Below are positions 61,870 to 64,000 of a stretch of DNA of 64,000 nt, piece after piece. The position numbers and the translations under genes were made by a program. The stretch is taken from positions 1-64,000 of the forward strand of contig JAFYNZ010000028.1 in NCBI GenBank assembly GCA_017547845.1, written 5' to 3'. This DNA is from Muribaculaceae bacterium (lineage in GTDB: Bacteria > Bacteroidota > Bacteroidia > Bacteroidales > Muribaculaceae). Under the pieces are notes generated by a model that saw only the letters and a program-made list of their open reading frames with translations, made no database searches and was not told the DNA's origin. The first letter of the stretch is position 1, and each line of letters starts with the position of its first letter.

Positions 61870-63144
61870 CACCCCAAGTGCTTACATTTTAGTAACTTTG
61901 CACTATAAGAAACAACGATAACGTCGAAATACTAAACGCCCGCCTGGTTGTGATTTGCTTACATTTTAGTAACTTTGCACTATAAGAAACAACCGACGCG
62001 CCAACAGTCGCAAGGCAGAGAGCGTTGTGATTTGCTTACATTTTAGTAACTTTGCACTATAAGAAACAACTAAACGTCAACGACACGACGTAGCCACTGG
62101 TTGTGATTTGCTTACATTTTAGTAACTTTGCACTATAAGAAACAACAAGATTTATTGTTGAAAGACCTTTCAAATAGTTGTGATTTGCTTACATTTTAGT
62201 AACTTTGCACTATAAGAAACAACCGATCCAAAAGAGCGCCGTTATACGGTTAAGTTGTGATTTGCTTACATTTTAGTAACTTTGCACTATAAGAAACAAC
62301 CGCGCCAAATGAATACACCGAAGTAAGCGGTTGTGATTTGCTTACATTTTAGTAACTTTGCACTATAAGAAACAACAATTGGCACTCCATACTTTCACGT
62401 CGGTAAGTTGTGATTTGCTTACATTTTAGTAACTTTGCACTATAAGAAACAACCTGCTATAGTTGCAGGCTCTTCGAGCTCGGTTGTGATTTGCTTTAAA
62501 ATTCGTACCTTTGTACTATTAGAAACAACAAAGCTATGAGTAAAGCAGACAAAGCAAATGTTGTGATTTGCTTTAAAATTCGTACCTTTGTACTATTAGA
62601 AACAACTTTGAGGTTGAGAGCGTCAAAAAGATTTCTGTTGTGATTTGCTTTAAAATTCGTACCTTTGTACTATTAGAAACAACGGCGGTGCGCTTATCCG
62701 CTTTTTTAGCCGAGTTGTGATTTGCTTTAAAATTCGTACCTTTGTACTATTAGAAACAACGTTTTACCTTTAGGGAAGATGATACATTTAGTTGTGATTT
62801 GCTTTAAAATTCGTACCTTTGTACTATTAGAAACAACGCATTAAGTGCCATAATGTTGCAAGTTTCGGTTGTGATTTGCTTTAAAATTCGTACCTTTGTA
62901 CTATTAGAAACAACAGATTGGTAAAGAGTATAGGTTCAAACCTGTTGTGATTTGCTTTAAAATTCGTACCTTTGTACTATTAGAAACAACTCTACATTAG
63001 GAAATGCTGCAAACGTTGTAGTTGTGATTTGCTTTAAAATTCGTACCTTTGTACTATTAGAAACAACGTTAAGCTGTGTCTTGGCGTGCGTGGTCTTGTT
63101 GTGATTTGCTTTAAAATTCGTACCTTTGTACTATTAGAAACAAC
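61870..63144 (+). CRISPR. Type II-C CRISPR array: 17 repeats of 47 bp, 16 spacers, two repeat families
   Basis: Repeats begin at 61870, 61947, 62024, 62100, 62177, 62254, 62330, 62407 (family A) and 62483, 62560, 62637, 62714, 62791, 62868, 62944, 63021, 63098 (family B). Both start GTTGTGATTTGCTT and end AGAAACAAC; family A has ACATTTTAGTAACTTTGCAC in the middle, family B TAAAATTCGTACCTTTGTAC, 8 differences in 47. Within each family the full copies are identical. Spacers are 29 (four) or 30 bp (twelve), all different. The first repeat has lost its first 9-10 bases, which marks the old, distal end; the cas2-proximal side is then the insertion end. The 47-bp repeat length and GTTGTGATTTGC start are those of Bacteroidales type II-C arrays. 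Processed crRNA should be spacer followed by the 5' part of the repeat on the plus strand. Confidence 0.98.
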
Positions 63145-63197
63145 AGATTATTCATAACGCGTTGGGTATCAATCAAGTAAAAGGTTTCTTAGAAAAT
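63145..63197. other. Short flank between last repeat and terminator (possible leader)
   Basis: 53 bp, AT-rich, no gene and no anti-repeat. If spacers are added on the cas2 side, the integration leader must be here. Confidence 0.4.
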
Positions 63198-63230
63198 AAA
63201 ATCTGATGAAGAAAAACTTCATCAGATTTT
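63198..63230. terminator. Bidirectional terminator between array and cas2
   Basis: AAAATCTGATGAAG (63198-63211), loop AAAAA, CTTCATCAGATTTT (63217-63230): perfect 14-bp stem with T-rich ends on both strands. It separates convergent crRNA and cas transcripts. Confidence 0.92.
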
Positions 63231-63265
63231 ATTTATCACCCATTTTGTAATTCTGTAATGTGCTG

Positions 63266-64000
<735 letters not shown>

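Follow-up and report, generated by a model that had tools for sequence, protein, structure and literature searches.

How does a single CRISPR array come to hold two kinds of repeat that meet at one sharp boundary? The question is posed by a stretch of 64,000 nucleotides from a Muribaculaceae bacterium (assembly GCA_017547845.1, contig JAFYNZ010000028.1), to which, at its full length, we refer as the window. Its CRISPR array (61870-63144) comprises 17 repeats of 47 bp separated by spacers of 29-30 bp, namely eight repeats of family A (61870-62453) followed by nine of family B (62483-63144). The B repeats are all exact copies, and the A repeats consist of seven exact copies (61947-62453) behind a decayed first one. 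Eight fixed differences distinguish the families, at repeat positions 15, 16, 18, 19, 22, 26, 32 and 38, six of them within positions 15-26 and two within 27-47; positions 1-14 and 39-47 are the same in both, and no intermediate repeat occurs among the 17. Our alignment of the repeats agrees with the original prediction on the two families, the sharp boundary, the eight differing positions and the absence of an intermediate. As 16 of the 17 copies score above the gathering score of the Rfam family CRISPR-DR49, the repeats are not a chance pattern.

Among 101 arrays (1669 repeats) of comparable loci, two families distinguished by substitution (at least two copies each, at least three differences) are present in the window only; two other arrays were flagged for differences by insertion, and three show steps of one or two bases. 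These arrays stem from a set in which 37 of 134 loci lacked an array of at least three repeats in the stretch examined. One of the insertions, 21 bp in the middle of the repeat, is present in 5 of the 23 repeats of a type II-C array of the Paludibacteraceae MAG RGIG1559 (L126:15548-17370), interspersed with normal repeats. In a Parabacteroides MAG (L083), a small step lies at the leader end, where three repeats are followed by two with two base changes within the promoter motif discussed below.

It had been argued that stepwise mutation during array growth would leave a graded series, which made the clean switch itself telling. Since new repeats copy the repeat at the leader end, any change in the latter gives a sharp step, and this part of the argument does not stand. 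What does stand is that eight changes at once call for recombination.

The locus and the polarity of its array

The array is situated on a contig of 112,494 bases (G000:C25 in our set), where it is followed by cas2, cas1, cas9 and a tracrRNA gene diverging from cas9. The cas2 gene (63266..63598, minus strand; 110 aa) is recognized by TIGR01573 and by PADLOC as Cas2_II. The cas1 gene (298 aa) occupies 63618..64000 on the minus strand and extends past the end of the window to contig position 64514. Further along the contig lie cas9 (64573-69105; 1511 aa) and, on the plus strand, the anti-repeat of the tracrRNA (69184-69209). Other than these three cas genes, the only ORFs of at least 90 aa between the array and the tracrRNA are two antisense ORFs inside cas9, and neither csn2 nor cas4 was named among the proteins scanned. 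From the presence of cas9, cas1 and cas2, with no csn2 or cas4 seen, we assign the locus to type II-C. Its Cas9 matches TIGR01865 with 384.6 bits over 4-1388, and the translation contains the stretches DVGTNSIGWA, HIIPQ and DHRHHALDA, which we take to be the RuvC/HNH motifs. PcrIIC1 is the partner protein of another Cas9, CbCas9. By sequence, the latter is the closest solved relative of the long Cas9 of the window (1436.8 bits; PDB 8iyq, 8wmh).

The predicted tracrRNA has an anti-repeat, a core, a hairpin and a T run. The search for an anti-repeat near cas9 that the original prediction had proposed yielded the one at 69184-69209, with a full fit to B and a poor fit to A. By exact word it is the only one in its own assembly, which is 89.8% complete and may thus lack a second tracrRNA; a looser pattern recovers two further matches with three mismatches, on contigs C60 and C65, both without the tracrRNA core.

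Type II-C arrays are transcribed toward the leader, and acquisition takes place at the last repeat, as described in the excerpts of PMC8092290 and PMC12080349 used here. From these reports and from relatives of the locus, we place the leader, and with it the acquisition end, at 63145..63265; it contains a hairpin at about 63194-63234. The first and oldest repeat, of family A (61870..61916, plus strand), has eight mismatches to A, all in its first nine nucleotides, which belong to the tracrRNA-pairing part; the TAACTTTG motif and the 3' end are retained, and the TTG is gone. Relatives show the same pattern of decay. The repeat at the 5' end of transcription is off consensus in 26 of 54 motif-bearing arrays of the locus set and the leader-end repeat in four, a count that leaves out two first repeats with N runs and in which the window was compared with A. 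Most of the decay falls in the tracrRNA-pairing part, with 0.30 changes per site; the TAnnTTTG motif, retained in 23 of the 26, has 0.05 and the sequence downstream of it 0.07. As the decayed copy is the first A repeat, A is, by this sequence criterion, the old, leader-distal end of the array, and B the young, leader end. Decay of the oldest ("extra") repeat in type II-C arrays is described in an excerpt of PMC12080349, and the window resembles it in that the first nucleotides have decayed and the TAnnTTTG part has been retained; such decay accounts for repeat 1 only and not for the step from A to B.

A promoter motif within the repeats

All 16 intact repeats of the window, of either family, contain TTG-N19-TAnnTTTG at the same place, as exemplified on the plus strand at 62484..62513 by TTG (62484-62486), 19 bp and TACCTTTG (62506-62513); the sole A/B difference inside TAnnTTTG falls on a free base. 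TAnnTTTG is described as a Bacteroidota promoter pattern in an excerpt of PMC10309648, and TTG within the repeat in one of PMC8092290 for Flavobacterium columnare. Among the 96 distinct repeats of 100 loci (one further repeat, L249, read on the wrong strand, is left out), 87 contain the motif in almost the same position, as against 0.4 on average and at most 4 in repeats shuffled over 2000 rounds with only base composition kept; the TAnnTTTG core is found in none of the reverse complements of the 96. TAnnTTTG also precedes the tracrRNA core, within 45 nt, in 87 of 97 tracrRNA genes. As each repeat has its own promoter motif, the A spacers are probably still transcribed. A general in-repeat promoter is at odds with Riemerella, in whose repeats no promoter was found according to the excerpt of PMC5006608. 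The nine distinct repeats that lack the motif come from L072, L074, L091, L110, L117, L121, L125, L126 and L140; they include those of a Fibrobacter MAG and two Dysgonomonas, which have TATCTTAG at about the same place, and other promoter rules may hold there.

Fit of the two repeat families to the tracrRNA

In type II-C systems, the handle of a crRNA derives from the repeat downstream of its spacer. On the plus strand, A repeats 2-8 with spacers 2-7 (61947..62453) are followed by spacer 8 (62454..62482), which has an A repeat before it, on the promoter side, and a B repeat after it, on the handle side, and then by B repeats 9-17 with spacers 9-16 (62483..63144). Spacers 1-7 should accordingly receive A handles, and spacer 8 is predicted to receive a B handle, as the handle is taken from the downstream repeat. 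If the step from A to B was made by a crossover, the latter lies between 62445 and 62496, past the last A-specific base and ahead of the first B-specific one.

The anti-repeat of the window is predicted to pair with B at -32.6 kcal/mol, in 24 continuous base pairs, and with A at -19.4 kcal/mol, continuously over a common stem of ~14 bp and weakly beyond it; the values become -29.6 and -19.1 kcal/mol if a guessed transcript start is used. The preference is reversed in another genome of the genus, G323, whose tracrRNA is predicted to pair with A at -28.4 kcal/mol and with B at -18.6 kcal/mol, in the latter case over the common stem only. The anti-repeat of a further relative, G013, likewise prefers A (-24.7 against -18.6 kcal/mol). 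The first 14 nt of the repeat alone pair fully with the anti-repeat of the window, at -18.4 kcal/mol in both families, and the first 15 nt are the part that contacts Cas9 after cleavage by RNase III, as given in an excerpt of PMC12080349.

It had been proposed that A crRNAs fit the present tracrRNA worse, leaving the old spacers partly or wholly silent. The worse fit is evident in the pairing energies; complete silence is not borne out, given that the shared 14 nt pair fully and the promoter motif is retained. With the Cas9-contacting part of the handle unchanged and the upper stem lost, we expect poorer maturation of the A crRNAs and competition from B crRNAs rather than certain silence, and their use would be reduced but perhaps not absent.

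Relatives with a different Cas9

Among 111 genomes of the genus, A repeats are found in two, that of the window and G323, and B repeats in that of the window alone. The proposal to look in related genomes for arrays made only of A or only of B was thus answered for A, by the pure array of eight A repeats in G323, the first of them with two changes; no B-only array was found among these genomes. The A repeats 2-8 of the window are identical to those of G323 at 47 of 47 positions. The two arrays have no spacer in common by inspection. In G323 (L163:5911-6062), the oldest spacer is duplicated along with its repeat.

Cas1 and Cas2 of the window and G323 are 96% and 91% identical at the amino acid level; the Cas9 of G323 has 1254 aa and is 24% identical to the 1511-aa Cas9 of the window. 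Similarity between the loci stops at the cas1 start codon, restarts inside the anti-repeat and continues for ~148 bp, with 4 of 147 aligned bases differing in this tracrRNA tail region (4 of 60 in its non-coding part alone). The leaders agree at 107 of 120 aligned bases, with 13 differences and 13 gap columns. Both leader hairpins have the same inner stem, with a loop of AAAAA in one genome and TTTTT in the other, as if the hairpin were inverted. Fourfold sites differ at 36% (44/123) in cas1 and 29% (9/31) in cas2, and at 57% (68/120) and 75% (36/48) in two flanking genes.

G323 is collinear with the window to the left of the array, at 73-77% nucleotide identity, and at 88% in the first 564 bases. 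The chromosomal sites of the two CRISPR loci differ: the site of the window locus, between an aminotransferase gene and a cysteine-rich gene, is empty in G323, and the locus of G323 adjoins a malic-enzyme-like gene. Hence, the CRISPR locus is mobile.

On a tree of 121 Cas1 proteins, G013 is by path the nearest other relative of the pair, and no starred branch unites it with them; it has a short Cas9 and repeats that are A-like at positions 15-24. Over the 30 nt that end at the anti-repeat core, the window more closely resembles loci with a long Cas9 (mean 8.0 vs 5.5) and G323 those with a short one (10.1 vs 5.0). The tail behind the tracrRNA core is identical in the window and G323 and on average nearer to short-Cas9 tails (4.1 vs 0.9), a likeness that is weak apart from G323, as 8 of the 15 next-nearest tails belong to long-Cas9 loci. 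Taken together, the traits of G013, the sequences on either side of the tracrRNA core and the order of the array suggest that the short Cas9 and A came first and the long Cas9 and B later.

Origin of the two repeat families

We consider it probable that the array is a record of the replacement of the effector, Cas9, in a type II-C locus. The original prediction had listed a change of cas machinery among its explanations, and such a change by recombination now finds good support in the anti-repeat fit, the A-only array of G323 and the differing Cas9s. The locus would at first have had a short Cas9 of ~1250 aa, a matching tracrRNA and A repeats, as the locus of G323 still does. Recombination with a related locus would then have exchanged cas9 together with the promoter of the tracrRNA and the variable half of its anti-repeat, and set a B repeat at the leader end, with the cas1-cas2-leader type and the tracrRNA tail left unchanged. 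Spacers acquired afterwards would all have come with B, since it is the leader-end repeat that is copied at each acquisition. The old spacers would have kept their own promoter motifs and a handle that pairs continuously with the new tracrRNA over ~14 bp only.

One tract would suffice if it began in spacer 8 or in the first 14 nt of the repeat behind it, took in the leader, cas2, cas1 and cas9, and ended midway along the anti-repeat; two shorter tracts could also have produced the change. The long-Cas9 locus L079 of a Prevotella MAG, for which no tracrRNA was found, has a repeat that matches B exactly over positions 1-25, and positions 32-47 of B are nearest to A, with two differences. A donor of the same cas1 lineage with a long Cas9 would explain both in one tract. 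A single long tract also predicts that the tail should be closer to G323 than cas1 is, and this is seen (4/60 in the non-coding part of the tail against 44/123 at fourfold sites of cas1, p 1e-5); relative to the leader, which would also lie inside the tract (13/120), the tail is not significantly closer (p 0.43).

No pure B array or B donor was found in a search covering the best 80 of 502 relatives, in a contig set that may omit the window's own genome, and no B array is present among the matches listed for 397 genomes of the family. Nor is there a match inside a spacer among the matches listed for these 397 genomes. With the whole array as query, phages gave four weak records (best E 1) and plasmids five, with no clear protospacer; judged by coverage, two of the five are other CRISPR arrays of Bacteroidota. 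For 8 of the 16 spacers (two of spacers 1-8 and six of spacers 9-16), 3'-terminal words of 14-20 bases gave nothing usable among the matches listed for viral contigs, the best extension being 24/30.

A fusion of arrays is the strongest of the rival explanations, and we regard it as unlikely. Here, a complete B locus would have landed, for instance through recombination between the arrays, in or beside an older A array of a separate locus, the cas genes of which were lost, with no exchange of Cas9 within one locus. The array alone would look the same in either case, the locus is mobile, and the disparity between cas1 (44/123 at fourfold sites) and the tracrRNA tail (4/147) may mean that the parts differ in origin. 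However, the tracrRNA has an anti-repeat half like that of long-Cas9 loci and a tail that matches the A locus exactly, and the leader, cas2 and cas1 are of the A-locus type, which makes the two systems merged at both ends and not mere neighbors. Moreover, the window's own assembly (89.8% complete) showed neither a trace of a short Cas9 nor any type II cas genes or anti-repeats besides those of this locus.

There is only a slight chance that the boundary is an assembly join between the arrays of two strains. The source assembly is in 69 contigs and incomplete, as just given, which leaves some room for such a join, but its contamination is 0.02, and the longest exact word common to the A and B parts has 16 bases, fewer than an ordinary assembly graph would need to make a join. 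Furthermore, the A repeats on one side of the supposed join and the leader type and tracrRNA tail on the other all match G323.

Slighter yet is the chance of stepwise compensatory change, in which the tracrRNA changed first, the leader-end repeat followed by point mutations and the intermediates were deleted: spacer deletion is common in CRISPR arrays and six of the eight differences do lie in positions 15-26, but Cas9 has changed as well, positions 26, 32 and 38 are altered without a pairing reason, the identity of B 1-25 with L079 is what import predicts, and the 101 arrays hold no other families of at least two copies, bar the small steps and insertions described above.

Cas9 exchange across the group

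Parsimony requires nine changes of Cas9 clade on the 121-protein Cas1 tree, where the minimum for three clades is two; the tree is a quick one with SH-aLRT support only and 41 of its 118 inner branches are weak, and the starred branches alone force five changes for the long clade and four and two for the others. Exchange of cas9 without a change of repeat is exemplified by G044 (L051) and G098 (L217), two genomes of another genus, which have the same chromosomal site, an identical repeat and Cas1 proteins 97% identical, with Cas9s that are 24% identical. Cas9 exchange therefore recurs in the group, usually with the repeat unchanged.

We also considered whether the 5' half of the repeat tracks Cas9 and the 3' half Cas1. 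This was ruled out over 64 loci, in which both halves track Cas1: the partial correlation for positions 7-23 is 0.39 (p 0.001) with Cas1 and 0.03 (p 0.285) with Cas9, and for positions 32-47 it is 0.17 (p 0.002) and 0.04 (p 0.123), respectively. As the repeats thus follow Cas1 and not Cas9, a change of repeat alongside a change of Cas9 is the exception.

A looser pattern that already demands part of the tracrRNA core found it in 101 loci and missed it in a further 28; 83 of the 101, from all three Cas9 clades, have exactly CACAATAAGGATTATTCCGTTGTGAAAACA. As for the repeat, its first 14 nt are GTTGTGATTTGCTT in 47 and GTTGTGAATTGCTT in 33 of 101 loci. The shared RNA core is a possible reason why Cas9 can be exchanged while the repeat stays as it is. 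Of the 18 loci with a deviating core, two are the window and G323, which have short insertions in its middle, and the window is the exception in which exchange extended into the anti-repeat.

Conclusions

The locus has counterparts in known systems. It shares with the type II-C locus of Flavobacterium columnare the minimal cas set with tracrRNA or anti-repeat, a TTG in the repeat and an array that here, too, is predicted to be transcribed toward the leader; the repeats of F. columnare have 36 bp (excerpt of PMC8092290) as against 47 bp here. With that of Bacteroides fragilis (excerpt of PMC9367070), it shares the minimal cas set with tracrRNA or anti-repeat and a 47-bp repeat of the same kind. 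What sets it apart from both, as far as these excerpts describe them, is that its array has two repeat families, each of which fits its own pair of tracrRNA and Cas9. That one Cas9 can replace another in a type II-C locus is already described: in Flavobacterium psychrophilum CN46, a different Cas9, Fp2Cas9, replaced the resident one (PMC10309648), as we propose here. A replacement of this kind at the same chromosomal site is seen in G044 and G098 and not in the window and G323, which do combine the same cas1/cas2 type (Cas1 96% identical) with different Cas9s. The excerpt of PMC10309648 mentions no change of repeat family, whereas in the window the anti-repeat and the leader-end repeat have changed and both kinds of repeat are kept. 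In the literature searched, with most subscription journals outside its scope, we found no array that keeps both generations of repeat, with a matching tracrRNA for each.

We tentatively raise the possibility, which we hold to be rather doubtful, that type II-C memory in Bacteroidota is built to outlive its effector. In this view, the first 14 nt of the repeat, shared by A and B, and a near-constant tracrRNA core serve Cas9 clades that are only ~23-34% identical, and each repeat has its own promoter, with old spacers still readable by a new Cas9 and the variable repeat/anti-repeat segment favoring new spacers. If true, the array would show, in order of time, under which Cas9 each spacer was acquired.

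In either event, the locus offers a natural test of what becomes of stored memory after replacement of the nuclease, with spacers 1-7 bearing the former handle and spacers 8-16 the present one under the same type of promoter. Cas9 and its RNAs have been held to be interchangeable only between close relatives, with largely agreeing Cas9 and Cas1 trees (excerpt of PMC3936727). The loci presented here, in which Cas9 has been repeatedly exchanged over cas1-cas2, qualify that picture, and the conserved RNA core may be what permits the exchange.
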